Below are positions 1,331 to 60,040 of a stretch of 64,000 nucleotides of DNA, piece by piece. The DNA is from Protonemura montana (Eukaryota; Arthropoda; Insecta; Plecoptera; Nemouridae). A program made the position numbers and the translations under genes. The stretch's first letter is position 1. Every line of letters begins with the position of its first letter. The notes beneath the pieces were generated by a model that worked only from the letters and a program-made list of their open reading frames with translations, did not search any database and was not told the origin of the DNA. Location: the NCBI GenBank assembly GCA_947568835.1, contig OX387608.1:10516001-10580000 (forward strand), read 5' to 3'.

Positions 1331-1494
1331 CCCAGTGTCCAAGTAGCTCAATAGGTTAGAGCAACACCCGCGATAGGTGGAGATCGGGGTTGGAGTCCCA
1401 GTTTGGGCATCAATAATTGAGACGGTTATAGTGTACACAATAATAAAATACCCCACGCATTGCAAGCTTTTGCAATTTTAATGAGATTTCATCT
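1331..1494 (+). mobile_element. tRNA-derived SINE
   Basis: An A-box-like TAGCTCAATAGGTTAGAGC and a B-box-like GGGTTGGAGTCCC are spaced as in a tRNA gene. A unique middle (gagacggttatagtgt), an AATAATAAAATACCCC stretch and the terminal GCATTGCAAGC / TTTGCAATTT motif follow. It lies just downstream of an (AAAAT)n microsatellite. It is tRNA-like, but no intact acceptor stem is present, so it is not a tRNA gene. Confidence 0.75.
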
Positions 1495-2676: not shown

Positions 2677-3128
2677 TTGATTGATTGATTTGTGGTGTTT
2701 AACGACGCACTGTTTTGACAACTGGCCCTGTGGCACTGGTCTTATGGCGTCAGTGAATGAGTGGATGAAGATGAGGATGATAAGAACTCAACCTAGCCTA
2801 GCATTGCGAACTCAACCTAGCCTAGCAGGGAGGAGGGGAAACCCGGTGACAGAACGTAGCCTCCTGTCGAAGAGCACTGGAGACTACCAGCTTAACGTCC
2901 CTTCCGAAGAACGGTACAACTCGGACAGTAAGATTCCTCCAACAATACATGCCGTCGAGAGGTTGATAAGCAAGGCGAATGAAGTTGCTGTACTGATTTT
3001 CATCCCTCCAGCCTCTCTCCCGAACGGAATGGTCATGTGTATGATGGTCACCCATCCAATTTGACTCAGCGTAGTGGTGCTTAACTTCGGTGATCTGATG
3101 AGAACCGGTGTTTCTAGCATGGCAAAAT
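2677..3128 (-). mobile_element. 5S-derived SINE
   Basis: On the - strand the copy reads 5S head (acaccggttctcatcagatc, accgaagttaagc), box C-like ggatgggtgaccatc, core, then the tail GTCGTTAAACACCACAAATC followed by several ATCA units. A small duplication (actcaacctagcctagca, twice) sits in the core-to-tail spacer at 2788-2828. Two overlapping reading frames in this region come from the SINE and are not genes. Confidence 0.85.
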
Positions 3129-3129
3129 C

Positions 3130-4679
3130 GTGCCACACTTACAGATATTCACTGATTAGACCGCAGGAAGATGCTAGACTTTCTTCATATCATTATTTTG
3201 GTAATTTTGTTCATTTTTGAACTTTTTGACATATGCCACATATACGATATCCATTTCGGCTTGTATGCCACACACCCACCCAAAACTTTTTATAAAAGTG
3301 GGTCGGTACCCTACTTGGAAAATTCACAATCCCTTGACCTCTTACAAAAGAGCGACAGAAAAAAATCACTCACAGATTATGCTGACTTTGGACCAGTCTT
3401 GCTGAAAATTCTCTGCCCGCCATTTCTGACAATAAAATCGCTCGAATGATCACTTTGTACTCACACTGTAAAGACCAAAGGCAAGCCGCATCGGAAAATT
3501 CAGATTAGAAATTCCTTGTCGGGAAAATGTATGATGGGAGATGAAAAGTTGCTGACCGTAAGGGCGAGCGTCGGGAAATTCTGGAAAGGGTTGGGTGGTG
3601 GAAGAGGAGTTTGGGAGGAAATGTTGACAGCGTATTCGATGTAAGCGAGAACTAAAATAAAAATTAACAGGTTTATTCATAACACTATCAAAATGCAAAA
3701 GTTTTAAATTTCCAGTTTTGATTTCTGAACAATTGGGATCTTTAAAAATGTTACTTTTCAATTTCTGATTTGTTCAAATTCTTACCGCTTGACATTTAGT
3801 TTCTAGGAACTTCCAGCTTCTTCCAGCACACGTAGTGAAAATAAAAGAATTTTATTTTTGTTCCTCCAGATTACAAATTTTGTTCAAATCTACATTCTTC
3901 TTAAATATAATCCTTATAAATATGTTTGCATCTCGAATCAATCACTACTCTTTATCAATACATACAGTGGTGTAAAGATGGAAAATTTGGTAATACGGTG
4001 ATTTTATATCAACTGAGGAAGGGGTGGGGGTCAGAGATAATTTTTAACACTTAGTATTATTTTGTTTGATTTCATTTCGTTGACGGTTGATTTGGATGGT
4101 AAGTCCTAACCTTATCACGAGCTATTCAACCGTGGTTACTTTCCACGTTCAAGAAGTCAGATATATTGTAATTAAACATCGAATTAGCAACAAATTAATC
4201 AAGTTCAAATTATGTAAAATACAATTTTCTTGGAAGAGACACAAAATACGGACGAATCAATTTTTAAAATATGTATGTTCTTAGCAGTGCATCCTTGTAT
4301 ACCCAGAATTACACCACTGCTAACAGCAATGGCGTCTTAGCGCCCCACTTGGAAAGTTCTCGCGCGACGAATTTTCATGCCCCGTGTCCCAATCTATATC
4401 CGCATAATTAAAACCGGGTGTTGGAATGCCCCCGGGGCCCATGTCATATCGCCTGACATGATCCAAGATTCTCTCATTAAATTCGATCTCAGCCAGCGAA
4501 AATTGCTATCACATCTTCATTATAACATACCCTTGGGTGTCGGATTAAAGATGGGTTCACTTTATTGGGCACATAATTAATTATCTATGTGATGATCACA
4601 TTTCTTATGAGAAGAATGCGAATGCATAGCATCTTTTAACTAACTATATATCTACGGTACATCCATCGAGTTTATAGCT
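3130..4679. other. no gene seen; AT-rich spacer
   Basis: Only short frames without codon bias are present. A CpG/GC-richer patch lies at about 4320-4460 (cgccccacttgg, cccccggggccc). No repeat family of this window was recognised. Confidence 0.4.
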
Positions 4680-5036
4680 ACAGTTAGAGGGCCAGCGTTC
4701 ATTTGAAACTTTCTGCTAAGAAAACTAGCCGGAAAGAAGAAGTAACGGAAGGTGTCACCTGATGGCGCTTGCGGCTGTACTTTTAACAAATCTCTGTAAT
4801 TGAATTCTTACGATTTCTAATATCGTTACATCTACATCAATTGTCGAGTTCAGGATCAGTAAGGATTAATTGAGTTTTAACCAGCTTAAAATGCGAGTAA
4901 TCTGCGTGAAGAAAAGTAATTAATTTTATAATACTCAAAACGACCGTTCACCTAGTAACATCCTCATTTTTTTTTCGGTAAAGTATTCATTTGTTGTCCA
5001 TTTTCCTTGAAAAAAATAAAATCAGCGCTATGGTAA
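4680..5036 (+). mobile_element. family X non-autonomous repeat
   Basis: Conserved blocks in order are: cagttagagggccagcg; ggtgtcacctgatggcgctt; ttttaacaaatctctgtaat; aatgcgagtaatctgcg; tactcaaaacgaccgt; cacctagtaacatcctc; and agcgctatggtaatgc. It has no ORF. It is about 355 bp, with the same layout as five other copies in the window. Confidence 0.7.
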
Positions 5037-6400: not shown

Positions 6401-6460
6401 ATCTCTATACGTTTGGTAATGTAGTGTTTGGGGAATTAAATGGGGTATTCGATCTGCGTT

Positions 6461-7115
6461 TTTGACTGGGCATGCGACTCTGTCCCAGTGCAACTTTCAC
6501 GTGTTCGACTGGACATGCGACTCTGTCCCAGTGCAACTTTCACGTGTTCGACTGGGCATGTGGCTCTGACCCAGTGCAACTTTCACGTGTTCGACTGGAC
6601 ATGTGACTCTGCCCCAGTGCAACTTTCACGTGTTCGACTGGACATGTGACTCTGTCCCAGTGCAACTTTCACGTGTTCGACTGGGCATGTGACTCTGTCC
6701 CAGTGCAACTTTCACGTGTTCGACTGGACATGTGACTCTGTCCCAGTGCAACTTTCACGTGTTCGACTGGGCATGTGACTCTGCCCCAGTACAACTTTCA
6801 CGTGTTAGACTGGACATGTGACTCTGCCCCAGTGCAACTTTCACGTGTTTGACTGGGCATATGACTCTGCCCCAGTGCAACTTACACGTGTTCGACTGGG
6901 CATGCGACTCTGTCCCAGTGCAACTTTCACGTGTTCGACTAGGCATATGACTCTGCCCCCGTGCAACTTACACGTGTTCGACTGGGCATGTGACTCTACT
7001 CCAGTGCAACTTTCACGTGTTCGACTGGGCATGTGACTCTGCCCCAGTGCAACTTTCACGTGTTCGACTGGGCATGTGACTCTGTCCCAGTGCAACTTTC
7101 ACGTGTTCGACTGGC
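6461..7115. repeat. 43-bp tandem array, 15 copies, E-box in each
   Basis: The unit is 43 bp, made of the parts cgactggacatgtgactctg, tcccagtgcaactttcacgt and gtt. CACGTG occurs 15 times at a 43-bp step from 6499 to 7100, with one unit a base shorter. Variants are point changes (ggcatg/gacatg, tgtcccag/tgccccag, tttcacg/ttacacg). Because 43 is not a multiple of 3, the reading frame changes each unit; open frames on both strands here are artefacts of the array. Confidence 0.95.
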
Positions 7116-8348: not shown

Positions 8349-8762
8349 ACCCCATCGGTTCTTGTGAGATCACCGAGGTTAAGCAGCTCTGCGCTGCGTC
8401 GGGTATTGGATGGGTGACCATCATACAAATGACCAGTTCCGTTCGGGATAAAGGTTGGGGGGATAAAAGTTGATACAACAACTTCATTCGCTTTGCTTAT
8501 CAACCTCTCGTCAGCATTGCTTTGTGGAGGAATCATATTGTTCACGTTGTAGCGTTCTTCGGAAGGAACGTTAAACCAATGGTCCTCTTGGTGCTCTTCG
8601 ACAGGAGTAGGCTACGTGCAGTCCCTGGGTTTCTCCTCTTCCTTTGTAGCCTAGATTATTTTCATCATCATCCTCATGGTCATTTTCTCACCGATGCCAT
8701 TAGACCAGTGCCACAGAGCTCATTATCAAAACAGTGCGTCGTTAAACACAATAATCAATCAA
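8349..8762 (+). mobile_element. 5S-derived SINE, slightly 5'-truncated
   Basis: It begins within the head (ccatcggttcttgtgagatc, accgaggttaagcagct) and keeps GGATGGGTGACC. The core is diverged (gttcttcggaaggaacgttaa). It ends CAGTGCGTCGTTAAACACAA plus ATCAATCAA. Confidence 0.85.
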
Positions 8763-9945: not shown

Positions 9946-9974
9946 TAATGATTTCCACGAGTTGGCTACTCTTA

Positions 9975-10535
9975 GGCTATCAAGACTCCATGGCTTGACA
10001 GTCAGTCTTGCAGAAAACATGGCGCTAACACCACTATCAGGCTATCAAGACTCCATGGGTTGACAGTCAGTCTTGCAGGAAACATAGCGCTAACACCACT
10101 ATCAGGCTATCAAGACTCCATGACTTGACAGTCAGTCTTACATAAAACATGGTGCTCACACCACTATCAGGCTATCAAGACTCCATGGCTTGACAGTCAG
10201 TCTTACATAAAACATGGTGCTCACACCACTATCAGGCTATCAAGACTCCATGGCTTGACAGTCAGTCTTGAAGAAAACATGGCGCTTACACCACTATCAG
10301 GCTATCAAGACTCCATGGCTTGACAGTCAGTCTTGAAGAAAACATGGCGCTTACACCACTATCAGGCTATCAAGACTCTATGGCTTGACAGTCAGTCTTG
10401 CAGAAAACATGGCGCTAACACCACTATCAGGCTATCAAGACTCCATGACTTGACAGTCAGTCTTGCAGAAAACATGGCGCTAACACCACTATCAGGCTAT
10501 CAAAACTCCATGGCTTGACAGTCAGTCTTGAAGAA
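9975..10535. repeat. 65-bp tandem array, 8.6 copies
   Basis: The unit is made of ggctatcaagactccatggc, ttgacagtcagtcttgcaga, aaacatggcgctaacaccac and tatca. Copies differ by a few bases (gcagaaa/cataaaa/gaagaaa; gcgctaa/gtgctca). Each unit contains CAAGACT ... AGTCTTG, a 7-bp perfect stem around ccatggcttgacagtc. The array lies inside a pair of long inverted repeats. Confidence 0.95.
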
Positions 10536-10689
10536 ATTGTGGCACACTATGTAATAGTGTCGCAATTCCGCCGAATAACTCCCCTGCCCTCCTCCCCCCC
10601 TTCCCCAGAGGTTTTCTTCGTCGTCTTGGTCATGCCAAGACCACCGCTTGTCTCAAACCTGACTGGCCATGTTTAATCGTATTAGTAAT

Positions 10690-12337: not shown

Positions 12338-12760
12338 CGATGATTATTGAGGTTTAACGACGCACTGTTCTGGCATCTGGCCATGTGGCACTGGTCTAAT
12401 GGCGTCGGTAAATGAGTGGATTATGATGAGGATGATGATGATGATGAACTTAACCTTGTCTAGAAGGGAGGAGGGGAAATCCAGTGCCGAAATATAGTCT
12501 AATCCTGTCGAAGAGCACCAAGGGGACCATCGGCTGAACGTTCCGTCCGAAGGACGGTACAACGTGAACAACAGGATTCCTCCACAAATCCATGCTGTCG
12601 AGAGGTTGATAAGCAAGGCGAATAAAGCTGATGTACTAATTTTCATCCCTCCAACCTCTCTCCCGAACTGAACTGGTCATGTGTATGATGGTCACCCATC
12701 CAATACCTAACTCAGCGCAGTGTTGTTTAACCGGAGTTTCCAAAACGCCAAACCGTTCGG
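12338..12760 (-). mobile_element. 5S-derived SINE with deleted head segment
   Basis: On the - strand it starts ccgaacggtttggcgttttg but lacks most of the segment between the ACACCGG region and GTTAAAC. It then continues with ggatgggtgaccatcatac, the core and the terminal CAGTGCGTCGTTAAACC. A run of GAT/ATC trinucleotides sits near the 3' part. Confidence 0.85.
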
Positions 12761-14150: not shown

Positions 14151-15140
14151 ACAAACTCAATGATAAAATTTTAATTGCATTTCGCCATACTGTTTTGACA
14201 ACATACATTTTTCGCGTTTACAACGAAAAAAGGTACCAGATCACAGAAAATCAAAGAAAATCGTATCGTTTTCACATACGCTAACCTGTTTCAGACATTT
14301 TAAATGGGAAATCTGTTTTTAAACTCTGCAGTAAAACGTACGTTAGCGTTATTTAATAATGATTACAGTACAAATAAAGCATTTCTTGACTGTATATCCG
14401 ACTCCTCCATCTTCGATGACATGCACATTTACCAAACGCTTAATCCATCAGTTAGTCAAAGGCAATATAATTGATTTACACATTTGCAAATCAGCTGTGT
14501 AAACATTTATGTCGCGTCTCGACCACAAAGGCTAGGCCATAGATTCCTCTCTGACCTCAAATGCAACTCAAATGCACGACATTATCAAACGTCTTACCGT
14601 CATTGCGTCGCTTAACTGCGCCAAATATTTCATTAGTATATATTCATCAACATAAATTAATCGCCCATCAACGCAGTAGAAACGTAACCTGGAAAATGAT
14701 TTTACCTCTTTTACACACCACAGTAAATTTAATTTTAAGGTCATAATGCATGTGTAAACTTCAGATGGTCTAAAACAAGAAAATGTAAAGTGCACTTTTA
14801 TATTATGTGTTGCTGTGAGAAGATCTCGGCACATAGAGTTTTAGTGTCAGATCGTTAAATTCGGTATTTTAACTAGTGACATGACACGAAAAATGTGATA
14901 ATTTATACATTCTGCTCGAGACATTTGCATGCGTCGCTAGTTTAAGTCTTCTGGTTGGCCATTAAATTAATTACACTAGGGCGGAGGAGTTGGCTCAACG
15001 CGACGAAATTTAGCACTTTGGTTGTTTTATATAGATTGCTTTGATTGTGGTTGCAAATGAAATCGGAATGGGTAGCTTTTAGATTTGGTGAATCTCAACA
15101 ATTTTGAGGTTAAGTTTTTATCACCTCTGAAGTTCTGGAA

Positions 15141-15583
15141 CCGAACGGTTTGGCGTGTTGGAAACACCGGTTCTCGTTTGATCACCGAAGTTAGGCAACA
15201 CTGCGCTGAGTCAGGTATTGAATGGGTGACCATTATACACATGATCAGTTCTGTCCGGGAGAGAGGTTTGAGGGATGAAAGTTAGTACAGCAACTTCATT
15301 CGCTTTGCTTATCAACCTCTCGACAGCATGGATTTGTGGAGGAATCCTGCTATTCGAGTTGTACCGTCCTTCGGAAGGGATGTGAAGCCGGTGGTCCCCT
15401 TGGTGCTCTTCGACAGGAGTAGGCTACGTGCCGGCACCGGGTTTCCCCTCCTCCCTTCTAGACTAGGTTAGGTTCATCATCATCCTCATCATCATCCACT
15501 CATTCACCGACGCCATTAGACCAGTGCCGCAGGGCCAGTTGTCAAAACAGTGCGTCGTTAAACACCACAAATAATAATAATAA
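15141..15583 (+). mobile_element. 5S-derived SINE, full-length reference copy (443 bp)
   Basis: The 5' head matches 5S rRNA: caccggttctcgtttgatcaccgaagtta, the box A region, then TGGGTGACC of box C. The body has a conserved core (ccgtccttcggaaggga), a short TCATCA-type microsatellite and the tail AAAACAGTGCGTCGTTAAAC plus ACCACAAATAATAA. The copy is flanked by a perfect 13-bp target-site duplication TGAAGTTCTGGAA at 15128-15140 and 15584-15596, which fixes both ends. The head would supply a type-1 internal RNA polymerase III promoter. Confidence 0.9.
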
Positions 15584-15959
15584 TGAAGTTCTGGAAACAC
15601 CGTCTGTGATTGCCGGTTAAATTCGTTTTCTTGCATCTAATTCCTTTTGATTTTCTTTGAGAATTAGAAAAAACCGTAAGGAGTTGGAAAACCTGTGAAA
15701 TTAATTGATTTCTCACATAAATGTGATGTGCCAGAATTAATAAATGACAAAATGAACCAGATTTACCATGTGTTGATAAGCAAAAAAAGAAAAAAGTGTT
15801 TGTAATTTTCCGAAATGTCAACAAAATTTTGTAGAAATAGGGTGAGACTGTTTGTTTGACGACAAACTTGTGATTTTTTTTTAATGAGTCCTGCCTTCGA
15901 GTCTCCTCTTGAGTATGTTTTGAAACCAAAACCGAAACCTTCCCCCCTTTATTCCAATT

Positions 15960-16335
15960 TTCACGAATTATAGCCTATTACGGCGAAAGGGACACGTCTT
16001 AAAAATAATGAAGAAAATAGCAGAAATGTTCCGGATATAATTACCAAAAAACGTAAACGACTTACGCGACCTCGAATTGAAAATAGGGCGGGATACCAAC
16101 ACCTTACCTCCCCCATTTTCTTCGTAGCTACGAGTAACTAAAAAGAATACAAGCATCCCTTCCTAAAAACTATTGAGGATGTTTCGGGCCTAGAACATAA
16201 ACATGCATACTTAATTCACATTTGACCAACTACAGCCCATTACGGCGAAAAGGACACGACACAAAATGTTCTAACATAATTATAATAAAATCATAAAACA
16301 ACATCCTAAAAAGCATCCCTTCCATACGTCATCGT
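15960..16335 (+). repeat. direct repeat pair
   Basis: Blocks near 15967-16170 (cctattacggcgaaa, ggacacgtct, gcatcccttcctaaaaac) recur at 16230-16325 (cccattacggcgaaaaggac, acgacac, catcctaaaaagcatccctt). The second copy is shorter. Both look like decayed copies of one unidentified repeat. Confidence 0.5.
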
Positions 16336-17085: not shown

Positions 17086-18468
17086 TTTTTTTCAGATTTT
17101 CATGCGTTATCGCAATATTGATAGTAACTTTACCCCCAAATGTATTGAGGTATACGCCTTAAATCACCTCGGTGTAACAGGCAGGGGCTACATTTGCCCT
17201 CTAATTTGTGGATACGGCTCCAGGTTTTCTTGAGCTTCAAATAGGGTACCCAGAAATGTAAGTAAATTATATTTCGTGGACTACCCTGCACTTAATTATG
17301 TCCGAATCACATGTCCAAATAAACCAAACGATGCAATGGGCATGGCTTCTCGTACAAGATTCTTCGCCGTGATTACAACGAATCGGGTATCGTGCAGCCC
17401 GAATGCGAACGGCATGATCTAGAATTCATATTCCCGGCAAATAGGCTTTTAATAAGGCTTCATTAGTAGTGCGATTGCATTAAATATAGTCCTTGCTTCG
17501 CGAGGCTATGGGGTGGACTATGTTTCAGTTTTATAATCTTTGAAGGTGTGTATGCTTGCAATGTTTAACCCGCAGCACATTTAGAAGTAGCTTCGTGTGT
17601 AAGCTGAGATTAAAATATTTTTAGCGTCACTTTTTGCGGATAATTGTACGGTGCTCGCCGCCTTTATTGTGGTGGCGTCCGTTAATATTTTTCTAGCCGA
17701 CGCCATTTTCGGCGCATGGCCGATTCGTACGCCCACACTATGGTGCGGGATAATTGTCCCTTTGCACGTTCTGGTGATCTTTTTCGAGAAATTACACACG
17801 AATAGGGCTGACTTAAATAGGAAATGAATCCTTGAAACGAAAGATTATTTCTTTTTTAGATTGATGATGAGTATAGATGGATTAAAAAAAAAACTAGGCT
17901 TGATTTGCATATATTTTTCGTAGCTTTTTATTACTATTGTTTAACATTTTATTGTTTTATTTGTTTTTTTCTCTTCGAGCGCCATGCTATGCGTTTCGGT
18001 TCTTGTTCCTTTTAATTTTATGCAGACGCCAAGCGTAATCAGTAGTTCTATCAATCTTTTACAATCGGCTTTCATGCAATCATGATCTTATTTCTAGTTT
18101 AGAGCAAGCAGGAAAGGTTCCGGGATAGAGAGCAAAAATACAGGGACATTGCGGGGTCTTTTGTGTTTAGAATTTTTTATCCTTCTCAATAATTATGTGA
18201 TCATATAAGAAGCTTGGGGGTGCAACGAGTTTTCTTAACACTCGTTTTGAGCTTGACGTCAACGGGTTTTGAACTGTTCTATATATTTTCAATAATGTCT
18301 ATCATTTTAATCGGCACAAATCCGATTTGCAAACACATTTCATGTAAATTTCTGAAACAACTCTTAAATGAAATGCCTATACACATTTTATAGCATATAC
18401 TCAAACGTTTCTAAGATAGTTATTATCGTTGCCAACTTAGAAAACAAAAAATACTATCAAGCATATAA

Positions 18469-18690
18469 GGTTCAATGGTAGATTCAGCGTTTGGTAGCGA
18501 TGGAGATGCTGAGATTGCCTGACAGAGCTTCTCAATTCTGCTATCTTATGTTATCACGGGTATATCATGGCCTAGCAAAGGAGGTTCAATGGTAGATTCA
18601 ACGTTTGGTAGCCATAGAGATGCTGAGATAGCCTGACAGAGCTTCTCAAATCTGCTTTCTTATGTTACCTCGGGTATAGCCATGAATTCA
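18469..18690 (+). repeat. 114-bp tandem repeat, two copies
   Basis: Copies start at 18469 and 18583 (ggttcaatggtagattcarc, gtttggtagc, gatgctgaga, cctgacagagcttctcaa, ctttcttatgttac). The same unit recurs as a trimer at 51238-51555 on the other strand. Confidence 0.9.
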
Positions 18691-21178: not shown

Positions 21179-21472
21179 AAACGGTTTGGCGTGTTTCAAT
21201 CCCAGTTCTCGTGAGATCACTGCGCTGGGTCAGGTATTAGATGGGTGACCATCATATACTTTCTGTTCAGGAGAGAGGTTGGAGGAATGAAAGTTAGTAC
21301 AGCAACTTCATTCGCCTTGCTTACCAACCTCTCGACAGCATGGATTTGTGGAGGAATCCTGTTGTTCGCGTTGTACCGTCTTTCGGAAGGGACGTTAAGC
21401 CGGTGGTCCCCTTTGTGCTCTTCGACAGGAGTAGACTACGTTCCGGCACCGGTACCGGGTCTCTCTCTCCGA
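21179..21472 (+). mobile_element. 5S-derived SINE, 3'-truncated
   Basis: The head (aacggtttggcgtgttt, cagttctcgtgagatcac) lacks about 15 bases at the GAAGTTAAGCAAC position. Box C is atgggtgaccatcatat. The core is well kept up to the caccgggt segment; the microsatellite and tail are missing. It lies 200 bases upstream of the CpG island and the candidate noncoding exon. Confidence 0.82.
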
Positions 21473-27354: not shown

Positions 27355-27637
27355 GATTGATTGATTATTCTGTTTAACGACGCACTGTTCTGACAACGGG
27401 CCATCTGGCAAAATGGCGACGGAGAATGAGTGGATGATGATAATTATAATGATGATGAACCTAACTTAGACTGGAAGAAAAGATGAGAAACCCGGTGCCA
27501 TAACATAACCTACTCCTGTCCGAAAAGAACTGGTCATGTGTATGATGGTCACCCATCCAATACCTGACTCAGCGCAGTGTTTCTGACCTCCGGTGATCTC
27601 ATGAGGACCGGTGTTTCCAACAAGCCAAATCGCCCAG
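27355..27637 (-). mobile_element. 5S-derived SINE, large internal deletion
   Basis: The tail (gtttaacgacgcactgttct), the microsatellite and the 5S head (caccggtcctcatgagatca, cagcgcagtg, ggatgggtgaccatc) are all present. About 150 bp of the central core, including the ccttcggaaggg motif, is missing. Confidence 0.82.
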
Positions 27638-31659: not shown

Positions 31660-32045
31660 CCGAACGGTTTGGCGAGTTGGACACATTGATTTTTCTTATA
31701 TCTCCGAAGTTAAGCAACAAAAAGCTTGGTCAGTTATTGGATGGGTGACCATCAAACACATGACCCGTTTTGTTCGGAAGAGAGGTTGGAGGGATGGAAG
31801 TTAGTACAGCAACTGCATTTTCCTTGCTCATCAACCTCTCGACGGTGTGGATTTGTGGAGGAATCCTGCTGTTCGAGTTGTACCGTCCTTCGGAAGGAAC
31901 GTTAGGCCGGTGACTCATTGGTGCTCTTCGACTAGGCTACGTGCCTACGCCAGATTTTTCCTCTGCCCTTTTAGGTTAGGACCAGTTCATAACCGCCTCA
32001 TCATTACCCACTCATTCTTGTACACTATTAGATAAGCGCCACATA
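31660..32045 (+). mobile_element. 5S-derived SINE, diverged, tail lost
   Basis: It starts ccgaacggtttggcgagttg, keeps ccgaagttaagcaac and attggatgggtgacc, and has the ccgtccttcggaaggaacg core. It fails after the ATTAGATAAGCGCCACAT segment and abuts an inverted fragment of the same family. Confidence 0.8.
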
Positions 32046-32210
32046 TCCATGATGTCAAGAGGTTGACAAGCAAGGAAAAAGGAGTTGCTGAGGAAACTTT
32101 CTTCCGTCTAACTTCTCTCCCAAACAGAACTTGCCATGTGTATAATGGTCATCCATCTAATACCTGACTCAGCGCAGTGTTGCTTAACTTCGGCGAATCT
32201 ACGAGATCAA
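32046..32210 (-). mobile_element. 5S-derived SINE fragment, inverted to its neighbour
   Basis: On the - strand it reads from the 5S head (cgccgaagttaagcaacact, gcgctgagtcaggtatt) to the conserved segment around ctcttgacatcatggat, then stops. It abuts the + strand copy without a gap, giving a head-out inverted pair. Confidence 0.78.
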
Positions 32211-35782: not shown

Positions 35783-36209
35783 GACCTAACGGTTTGGCGT
35801 GTTGGAAACACCGGTTCTCATGAGATCACCGAAGTTAAGCAACACTGCGCTGAGTCAGGTATTGGATGGGTGACCATCATACACATGACCAGTTCTGTTA
35901 GGGAGAGAGGTTAGAGAGATGCAAGTTAGTACGGAAACTTCATTCGCCTTGCTTTTCAACTTCTTGACAGCATAGATTTGTGGGGGAATCTTGTTGTTCG
36001 CGTTGTACCGTCCTTCGGAAGGGACGTTAAGCCGGTGGTCCCCTTGGTGCTATTCAACAGGAGTAGGCTATGTGCCGGCACCGGATTTTACCTCTTTCCT
36101 TCTAAAAGTTAATCATTATCCTCATTATCACCCACACATTCACCGACGCCATTAGGCCAGTGCCGCAGGACCCGTTGTCAAAACAGTGCGTCGTTAAACA
36201 CAATGATCA
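35783..36209 (+). mobile_element. 5S-derived SINE, near full-length
   Basis: The head is intact (ggaaacaccggttctcatga, gatcaccgaagttaagcaac, GGATGGGTGACC), as are the core and the CAGTGCGTCGTTAAACAC tail. An 11-bp target-site duplication AAAGTGTACGA lies at 35772-35782 and 36210-36220. This copy has one of the best-preserved 5S heads in the window and is probably among the younger ones. Confidence 0.9.
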
Positions 36210-38728: not shown

Positions 38729-38935
38729 AGAGTTAATCAGTTATTGGATGGGTGACCACCTTACACATACACATGTACAATGCGTATATGTAGAGAAATA
38801 TCCGTAGAAACTTTTAGGCGATGATTTACTTTCGACAGAATAAGCCTATACATTTTAGCGCCGGGTTTTCTCAGCTCTCTTCTAGGCTTCGTTTGACTTA
38901 TCATCATCCTCATCATCCTCGTCAAAAATTTAAAA
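38729..38935 (+). mobile_element. 5S-derived SINE, heavily degraded
   Basis: Only cagttattggatgggtgacc, a mangled core, gccgggttttctcagctct and the tcatcatcctcatcatcctc stretch remain recognisable. It lies about 150 bp downstream of the two-exon gene. Confidence 0.65.
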
Positions 38936-40181: not shown

Positions 40182-40580
40182 GCGAACGATCGGTTTGGCG
40201 TTTTGGAATAAAAAAGGGTTTCTGTAGGGTTAAGCAAGGGTCTCCAGAGTTAAGCAGCACTATGCTGAGTCAGTTATTGGATCGGTGACCAGTTCTGTTC
40301 AAGATAGGGGTTGGTGGGATAAAAGTCGTCTTGCTTATCAACCTCTCGACAGCATGATTTTGCGAAGGAATCCTGTTGTTCGCGTTGTACCGTACTTCGA
40401 AAGGAACGTTCTAGTGGTCTCATTGGTGCTCTTCGCTGAGTGCCGTAACCAGGTTTCCCTCATTTCTATTAGGCTAGGCTAAGGTTTATCATCATCATCT
40501 CCATCAGCATCCTCTCATTTCTGACCCCATAAGACCAGCGTAGCATATTGAAAACAGTGCGTCGTTAAAAACGACAAATT
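40182..40580 (+). mobile_element. 5S-derived SINE, diverged
   Basis: It starts gaacgatcggtttggcg and contains a locally duplicated GGGTTAAGCA / GAGTTAAGCA in the box A region. Box C is altered (attggatcggtgacc), and it ends AACAGTGCGTCGTTAAAAAC. It is an older copy. Confidence 0.8.
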
Positions 40581-41380: not shown

Positions 41381-41798
41381 CCGAATGGTTTGGCGTGTTG
41401 GAAACACCGGTTCTTGTGAGATCACCGAAGTTAAGCAGAACAGCGCCGAGTTGGGTATTGGATGGGTGATCATCATACGCATGACCAGTTCTGTTCGGGA
41501 GAGAGGCTGGAGGGATGAAAGTTAGCACAGCAACTTCATTCACCTTGCTTATCAATCTCTCGATCGCATGGGTTTGTGGAGGAATCTTTGTGGGTTTGGA
41601 AGGGACGTTAAGCCGGTGGTCCCCTTGGTGCTCTTCGACAAGTGTAGGATACGTGCCGGAACCGGGTTTCCCCACCTCCTTTCTAGGCAAGGTTAGGTAC
41701 ATCATCCTCACATTTATCTACTCCTTCACCGACGCGATTATACCAATGCCACATGGCCAGATGTCAAAACAGTGCGTCGTTAAACAATGTAATCAAAG
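41381..41798 (+). mobile_element. 5S-derived SINE, internal deletion in core
   Basis: The copy starts ccgaatggtttggcgtgttg and keeps the 5S head and box C (GGATGGGTGA). It lacks part of the core between ggaatc and gggacgttaagcc, and ends at GTGCGTCGTTAAACAATG. A 17-bp target-site duplication with one mismatch (cattcagtatctctcat / catttagtatctctcat) flanks it at 41363-41379 and 41799-41815. Confidence 0.88.
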
Positions 41799-41874: not shown

Positions 41875-41982
41875 ATCGATTGATGTATAGGGTTTAACGA
41901 CATACTTTTTTGACAACGGGCCCCGTAGCGCTGGTTCTCAAGCGTCAGTAAATGTGTGGATGATGATGAACCTAGCCTAGCA
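41875..41982 (-). mobile_element. 5S-derived SINE, 3' tail fragment
   Basis: Only the terminal ~110 bases are present: on the - strand tcatcatccacacatt, a diverged cgctacggggcccg, then GTATGTCGTTAAACC and an ATCAATCGATC-type end. It lies 60 bp from the full copy at 41381-41798. Confidence 0.72.
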
Positions 41983-51130: not shown

Positions 51131-51237
51131 TATATACCTATGGGTGTGCTTACCTGTGCCTGTGCTATACTGTGTTAAAACTAGATGAGTGAAAAAAAAA
51201 CAATGAGAAAATATTTTCTACCATTTCATGCAGGTAA

Positions 51238-51555
51238 TAAGAAAGCAGAATTGAGAAGCTTTATCAGGTGATCTCAGCATCCCCATAGCTACCAAACGTT
51301 GAATCAACCATTGAAATTCCTATGCTAGGCCAGGATATACCCGTGGTAACATAAGATAGCAGAATTGAGAAGCTCTGTCAGGTGATCTCAGCATCTCCAT
51401 GGCTACCAAACGTTGAATCTACCATTGAACCTCCTATGCTAGGCCAGGATATACCCGTGGTAACATAAGAAAGCAGAATTGAGAAGCTCTGTCAGGTGAT
51501 CTCAGCATCTCCATGGCTACCAAACGTTGAATCTACCATTGAACCTCCCATGCTT
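51238..51555 (-). repeat. 114-bp tandem repeat, three copies, inverted relative to 18.5 kb
   Basis: Units start at about 51238, 51352 and 51466. Each contains agcagaattgagaagctctg, tcaggtgatctcagcatctc, catggctaccaaacgttgaa, and (except the last) gccaggatatacccgtggta. The second and third copies are nearly identical, which points to recent local duplication. Confidence 0.9.
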
Positions 51556-55255: not shown

Positions 55256-55639
55256 ATTGATTTGTGGGGTTTAACGACGCACTGTGACACTGGTTTAATC
55301 ATGTATGTGGATGATGATGAACCTAGCCTAGACTAGAAGGGAGGAGGGAAAACCCGATGCAGGTACGGATAACCTACTCCTGACGAAGAGCATCAATGAG
55401 ACCACCGGCATGGTCCCCATAGATGGTACAACTCGACAAACAGATATCCATTCTGTCTAGAGAGGTTTATAAGCAAGGCGAATGAAGTTTCTGTACTAAA
55501 TTTCATCCCTCCAACCTCTCTCCCAAACAGAACTGGTCACGTGTATGATGGTCACCCATCCAATACCTGACACAGAGCAGTGTTGCTTTACTTCGGTGAT
55601 CCCACGAGAACCGTAGTTTCCAACACGCCAAACCGTTCG
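55256..55639 (-). mobile_element. 5S-derived SINE
   Basis: On the - strand it starts gaacggtttggcgtgttgga and has accgaagtaaagcaacactg, ggatgggtgaccatcatac and a diverged core. It ends GTGCGTCGTTAAACCCCACA plus AATCAATCA. It is nearly full length, with several small deletions near the tail. Confidence 0.83.
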
Positions 55640-59698: not shown

Positions 59699-60040
59699 TT
59701 ACACATGACCAGTTCTCATCGGGAAAGAGGTTGGAAAGATGAAAGTCAGTACAGCAACTTCGTTCGCCTTGCTTATCAACCTCTCGACAGCATGGATTTG
59801 TGATGGAATCCTGCTGTTCAAGTTGTACCGTCCTTCGAAAGGGACGATAAGCCGATGGTCCCCTTGGTTGCTATCGACAGGAGTAGGTACGTGCTGACAT
59901 CGGGTTAACCAGTCTCTCTTCTAGACTAGGTTAGGTTTACATCATCCTCGTCATCATCCACTAATTCACCGACGCCATTAAATTAGTACCACAGGGCCCG
60001 TTTTCAAAACAGTTCGTCGTTAAACTCCACAAATCAATAA
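59699..60040 (+). mobile_element. 5S-derived SINE lacking the 5S head
   Basis: It begins at ttacacatgaccagttct, just after the box C position, and runs through the core (ccgtccttcgaaagggacga) to CAGTTCGTCGTTAAACTCCA plus CAAATCAATAA. It is a 5'-truncated copy with no 5S promoter. Confidence 0.82.

Follow-up and report, generated by a model that had tools for sequence, protein, structure and literature searches.

The genome of Protonemura montana harbours a SINE family with a head derived from 5S rRNA; pieces of it occur in the stretch of DNA analysed here (the window; 64 kb, C11:10,516,001-10,580,000), and many copies elsewhere carry the 5S promoter region as a tandem array. The repeat is a 5S-headed SINE of the SINE3 class. 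The class itself is already known, and the unexpected part is that about half of the exact-head copies contain more than one unit. Taken together, the evidence makes it probable that short multi-unit elements of this family retropose as seeds and that their arrays then mostly lengthen in place, mainly near chromosome ends.

Dispersed copies with a 5S-derived head

BLAST with a consensus of about 438 bp, built from the window copies, recovered 15 chained pieces that together span 4920 bases (7.7% of the window), and the first-pass annotation (at least 15 copies, roughly 8%) is thus right if pieces are counted. Two of the pieces are no more than fragments, of 91 and 168 bases, and truncation or interruption affects several of the others. 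Mutually different target duplications of 11-17 bp bound five of the 15, two of them with one mismatch, the swapped-flank control described below applying to 46 retrieved copies; no target duplication stood out in the remaining 10. The best-preserved copy is bounded by the perfect 13-bp duplication that had been annotated for it:

15128..15140, no strand: 5' target-site duplication, TGAAGTTCTGGAA, a perfect 13-bp match with 15584-15596
15141..15583, + strand: best-preserved SINE copy of the window, with 5S head, body and tail
15141..15259, + strand: 5S-rRNA-like head of this copy (RF00001, 58.0 bits, model 1-120)
15188..15278, + strand: single 91-bp promoter unit of this copy (consensus 48-138), assigned by position
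15584..15596, no strand: 3' target-site duplication, a perfect 13-bp match with 15128-15140

The other pieces are as follows:

2684..3126, - strand: SINE copy with one unit, 85% to the consensus
8353..8749, + strand: SINE copy, 86% to the consensus
12352..12760, - strand: SINE copy, 86%, with an 11-bp target duplication (one mismatch)
21180..21452, + strand: SINE copy without its 3' part (consensus 4-300)
27371..27632, - strand: SINE copy with an internal deletion and a 12-bp target duplication
31660..32058, + strand: old SINE copy, 81%
32039..32206, - strand: SINE fragment (consensus 32-199), on the strand opposite to the copy at 31660..32058
35785..36201, + strand: SINE copy, 90%, with an 11-bp target duplication and the highest-scoring 5S match in the window (65.8 bits)
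38737..38920, + strand: old SINE fragment in two pieces
40248..40579, + strand: old SINE copy, 71%
41381..41786, + strand: SINE copy, 86%, with a 17-bp target duplication (one mismatch)
41879..41969, - strand: 3' SINE fragment (consensus 346-436)
55256..55639, - strand: SINE copy split into two parts (85% and 93%)
59700..60040, + strand: 5'-truncated SINE copy (from consensus 96)

The window also contains 114-bp tandem repeats at 18468-18678 and 51237-51554, which by eye are apparently the same unit on opposite strands, 43-bp and 65-bp tandem arrays at 6457-7114 and 9974-10536, a tRNA-Ser (CGA) gene or pseudogene at 1336-1411 (+), and only three stop-to-stop frames of at least 140 amino acids.

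The derivation of the head from 5S rRNA, as first annotated, was borne out both by the Rfam model and by the host gene. The Rfam 5S model matched seven places in the window at E < 1, four of them above the gathering score; the best match (65.8 bits, E 1.3e-11) spans the whole model, the second reached 58.0 bits (E 1.5e-9), and the one at 3024-3135, in the copy at 2684..3126, lay slightly below the gathering score. The match occupies about 119 bases at the 5' end of the repeat. Consensus bases 1-130 aligned to a host 5S gene (L042) with a score of 42, the maximum among 1000 letter shuffles being 7, and identity was 15/25 over 5S nucleotides 1-25, 34/37 over 26-62, 23/35 over 63-97 and 14/22 over 98-119. 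Boxes A, IE and C were placed by their usual positions in 5S rRNA, IE receiving no separate score, and the consensus is free of any run of four T. The family thus shares with SINE3 a 5S-derived head with an internal promoter region, from which transcription by Pol III would be expected. The host 5S genes lie at C11:70-49868 in a repeated block of about 9.5 kb with three genes per block, one of them reversed; these blocks start at the left end of C11, and further genes extend to about 106 kb.

Across the 258.5-Mb assembly of 34 contigs, an exact 18-base head word occurs at 4376 places and an exact 16-base tail word at 4828, as compared with none for reversed control words, more than the hundreds of copies that the first-pass annotation had asked for. 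Its description of the family as a major genome component was overstated, since, counted by exact tails, the window exceeds the genome mean density about 6.7-fold (eight 16-base tails, 1.2 expected). As separate features of the assembly, COX1 matches of equal score were found at C4:5760925-5762262 and on the mitochondrial contig (C34:3504-4841, gene order ND2-COX1-COX2-ATP6, as expected for insects and many crustaceans), the former being either a recent nuclear copy or a misassembly.

The copies are dispersed and bear differing target-site duplications, as is the case for SINE3 members. Among 46 retrieved copies with both ends inside the limits set for scoring, 20, including 9 of the 22 multi-unit copies, carry a target duplication with a score of at least 9 and 26 have none at that score, whereas swapping flanks between copies gave a duplication at a mean of 0.6% (highest 2.3%); the variable duplications anticipated earlier are therefore present. 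Shared flanks, which would have spoken against retroposition, were largely absent: 76 flanks yielded seven cross-hits, four inside one locus and three short ones between loci (54-80 bases, 81-88%). At loci L101 and L104, young copies nested in older ones of the family were recognised by eye, the target word standing on either side of the insert. The 3' end is fixed across copies, terminating in GTGCGTCGTTAAAC followed by short AAT/AAAT/CAAT repeats, and the 5' end is variable. The element may be described as a putative 5S-type internal promoter region, a body of about 300 bp and a fixed 3' end, which would insert by target-primed reverse transcription with the help of LINE enzymes. A partner LINE was not found: none of 12 stretches downstream of RNase-H matches, chosen from 44 such matches with LINE identity presumed from long frames, carries the SINE tail. 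At 143 exact tails, including that of the deleted window copy near 55280, non-SINE letters were found at four upstream positions; among tail-only loci no common upstream sequence was seen, and L088, in which the tail stands without a SINE body, is a single occurrence. Long RNase H frames (1037-1861 aa) of presumed LINEs were observed at L128, L132 and L133 (C16, C3), and run into minisatellite-like repeats downstream, for example with 72-bp and 62-bp periods, suggesting target-specific insertion. Pattern searches in viral and prokaryote contigs returned 0, 16, 7 and 18 stretches, and BLAST of the consensus against these 41 gave only matches of 18-21 bases, in four of them, which were taken as chance.

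Tandem promoter units and chromosome ends

Many copies outside the window have the structure [1-144][48-144]n[48-438] in consensus coordinates. The repeated unit measures 91 bp (consensus 48-138) and lies over the 5S promoter region, and its two borders have the hexamer AAGTTA in common (consensus 48 and 139). Its first base corresponds to 5S nucleotide 49, and the box C word falls inside it; by the usual box positions of 5S rRNA, it presumably runs from box A across the complete A-IE-C region. It is single in the copy at 15141-15583, and a 22-base unit-junction word, found at 16,001 exact places genome-wide (control words, 0), is absent from the window even at three mismatches, so that multi-unit copies lay outside the view of the first-pass annotation. 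Where arrays were read, unit numbers ranged from 2 to 17 (225 units, 37 elements of two or more units), and 30 of the 37 multi-unit elements have only 2-8 units in a sample that is non-random, loci L069-L084 having been selected by their match to a query some four units long. About 41 units are indicated at C1:990206-993957, an array read in part only (L021), by junction positions that are spaced, with some gaps, in multiples of about 91, and another array was placed by the junction word at C1:62182-63930. Genome-wide, 819 exact-head copies run straight into the body (one-unit) and 811 into another unit (multi-unit). Control words gave 0 in both counts, which need exact words at a fixed distance and thus favour young copies.

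Several further arrangements were observed. A second tandem form, with consensus 1-92 head to tail at a period of 92, occurs as short arrays in L009, L018, L021 and L026, and its exact words number four at C1:923486-923779 and six at C1:1225136-1225613. At L034, L069, L071 and L083, and in an older piece in L015, 5' ends fall at consensus 42-47, directly before box A, possibly a recurrent stop or start. In L099, near position 1117, the SINE tail appears about three times before the final tail.

It is extremely improbable that the repeats as a whole are satellite or segmental duplications instead of retroposons. Most arrays that were read continue into a SINE body. One array in L072 (six units) ends without such a body and, with the inferred length of some 41 units on C1, would suit a satellite; against this stand the fixed 3' and variable 5' ends, the nested insertions and the differing target duplications and largely unrelated flanks, on the last two of which segmental duplication was rejected. 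Some arrays may, on the other hand, have turned into satellites. Tandem repeats are also prone to assembly error, but that the array lengths, or the arrays themselves, are artefacts of assembly is very unlikely, as the private variants of units are distinct and ordered within arrays and most of the multi-unit elements are short.

Multi-unit copies are concentrated near chromosome ends. On C1, for which the listings of exact-head copies are complete (77 multi-unit, 62 one-unit), the 2.5 Mb next to either end contain 54 of the 77 multi-unit copies, as against 11 of the 62 with one unit (Fisher p 4e-10), and between 2.5 and 28.1 Mb there are 7 exact multi-unit beside 37 one-unit copies. The best 40 array matches in each of two listings place 34 of 40 within 3 Mb of an end, where 27% were expected. 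Among tail-anchored C1 loci, which include the body-less L088, two or more units were found in 15/24 at 0.3-2.3 Mb, in 0/6 at 2.6-3.8 Mb and in 0/20 at 3.9-13.1 Mb, the last 20 having been picked from 62 listed, with L101 and L104 read by hand; a unit is missing by truncation or interruption in 5/24 loci of the first interval and 8/20 of the last. Contig C16 (29.6 Mb, about 12% of the chromosome-sized sequence), possibly a sex chromosome, holds none of the best 40 array places in either listing.

Probable growth of arrays from retroposing seeds

The distribution of private variants among units shows that near neighbours resemble each other. Within arrays, shared private variants amount to 0.42 at lag 1 and 0.48 at lag 2 and fall to 0 at lags 9-11 (39 pairs); units of different elements share 0.105, as measured on the 29 elements that have at least three units. 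For 25% of units, the nearest one belongs to the same element, 3% being expected. The 5' truncations provide a second line of evidence. One-unit copies are truncated at a rate of 0.0023 per base (7/25), from which 14.8 truncations would be expected in the 14 tail-anchored multi-unit copies had these been copied at their present length, yet the count was three (Poisson 0.0002). Had they inserted with one or two units, 4.5 or 7.5 would be expected (Poisson 0.06 for the latter), in better accord with the count. This estimate covers 14 copies, all from one chromosome end, with L021 left out as its array leaves the locus. Together, the sharing of variants and the scarcity of 5' truncation suggest that the arrays grew mostly after insertion, from retroposing short seeds.

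An alternative is that a multi-unit master is retroposed whole, with the number of units varying through jumps of the reverse transcriptase between units. Last units of different elements share variants beyond chance (108 pairs, 46.7 +- 17 expected; 6/2000 permutations), as would follow from such copying, and A at column 86 is found in 11/37 last units and 6/188 other units; first units of different elements share variants weakly (84/2000 permutations). Locus L012 starts inside an array, retains seven full units and one partial unit and has a 14-bp target duplication. On a tree of bodies, multi-unit copies are more clustered than under shuffling of the labels: there are 10 changes, where shuffles average 18 and 0/500 were as low. 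Array-internal starts, considered as possible starts of transcription, are few (L012, L073 and others) and form no clear peak. The truncation counts and the sharing of private variants mainly between near neighbours in the same element speak against whole-array copying, which we regard as unlikely; as the sole route for long arrays it is disfavoured by the truncation counts. The sharing among last units, which also speaks against a purely local origin, the clustering on the tree and the target duplication of L012 are instead probably due to short multi-unit seeds that retropose and then grow.

The body tree comprises 56 rows of 71 bodies, nine other window copies and six rows more than 10% diverged having been excluded; most of its branches are weak, and two nested copies are combined in the row for L104. 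Copies with one unit and with several lie interspersed over the tree, 41 of the 53 inner branches are open, and it fits one or several origins of unit duplication alike. The sole starred clade (7 rows, 97/88), with short branches, unites the window copy at 15141-15583 with copies at least 2.6 Mb from the left end of C1, and it is without multi-unit copies.

In the favoured course of events, in which seeds retropose and arrays grow locally, the first duplication would most likely have arisen, perhaps by slippage, between two AAGTTA words 91 bp apart. The resulting short multi-unit elements would retropose, and their arrays would then, for the most part and chiefly towards the ends of chromosomes, lengthen and turn over locally through tandem duplication, either by slippage or by unequal exchange. 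We propose that one-unit copies stay one-unit because they have no internal repeat to misalign.

Whether the units are also of use to the element was considered separately. Tandem units might be kept as helpful, since a 5' truncation inside the array would leave a complete putative 5S-type promoter, in the manner of the 5' monomers of mouse L1. Each unit covers box A to box C by the usual box positions, L012 retains whole units after truncation, and half of the exact-head copies are multi-unit, all of which would fit such a benefit. However, promoter columns (box A and the box C word, without IE) are no better conserved than other columns outside CpG (2.5% and 2.1% differing, respectively), and within inner units they are the more variable ones (2.5% vs 1.8%), so that selection on the promoter of every unit was rejected; the starred short-branch clade without a multi-unit copy moreover indicates that one unit suffices for recent spread. 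A benefit of this kind is therefore doubtful. The CpG columns differ in 8.0%, which suggests CpG methylation. As a tentative extension, with some chance of being correct, the Pol III promoter of the family could be a self-renewing tandem array whose 5'-truncated daughters would keep a complete putative 5S-type promoter. If so, end-proximal insertions would become growing promoter satellites, linking the spread of a retroposon to the birth of a satellite.

Comparison with known 5S-headed SINEs and tandem-bearing retroposons

5S-headed SINEs are recorded in a beetle and in moths and, by motif, in planthoppers, according to the available parts of the literature (PMC3272025, PMC8010984, PMC7245038, PMC6401454, PMC10886601), only one earlier family having been named in insects by 2012 in the accessible text of PMC3272025. 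SINE3-1_TC of Tribolium castaneum is likewise an insect SINE with a 5S-derived head, as far as the available sections describe it (PMC7245038, PMC3272025); it seems to be mobilised by the I clade (PMC7245038, in part), and its motif is carried by planthopper SINE-like sequences in the accessible portion of PMC6401454. In those same portions, and in those on the moth families, tandem heads are undescribed, the word 'tandem' being absent from PMC6401454 and from PMC3272025, and a narrow literature search found no description of a tandem-headed (multi-unit) 5S SINE. The present family is, by comparison with these published descriptions, probably a new member of SINE3.

In Lepidoptera, HaSE3, PxSE4/PxSE5 and their kin also have a 5S head with boxes A, IE and C in the available excerpts, and the 5S families listed in the table of PMC8010984, as far as it was accessible, measure 294-389 bp. 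Partial sources give 4415 and 1952 copies in Plutella and an RTE partner proposed for HaSE3. The tails given there are (TGA)n for PxSE4 and (ATGT)n for PxSE5, whereas the Protonemura montana family ends in GTGCGTCGTTAAAC with AAT-type repeats. A retroposed 5S promoter is held to be weak or silent because it relies on upstream signals, in the parts of PMC3272025 and PMC8010984 available. With about half of its exact-head copies multiplying the 5S promoter, the present family allows one to test whether tandem internal promoters overcome this weakness, and it offers a natural series, from one to perhaps 40 units, for asking how tandem arrays develop out of a retroposon, and why they do so near chromosome ends.

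Beyond SINE3, mouse L1 elements possess tandem 5' promoter monomers and resemble the present family in that the promoter-bearing units on their 5' side vary in number; these monomers belong to a LINE promoter, whereas the Protonemura montana family is a SINE with a predicted 5S-type Pol III promoter region. The SVA (SINE-VNTR-Alu) elements of apes are composite retroposons with an internal variable tandem array which, unlike that of the Protonemura montana SINE, is not a 5S-type promoter.
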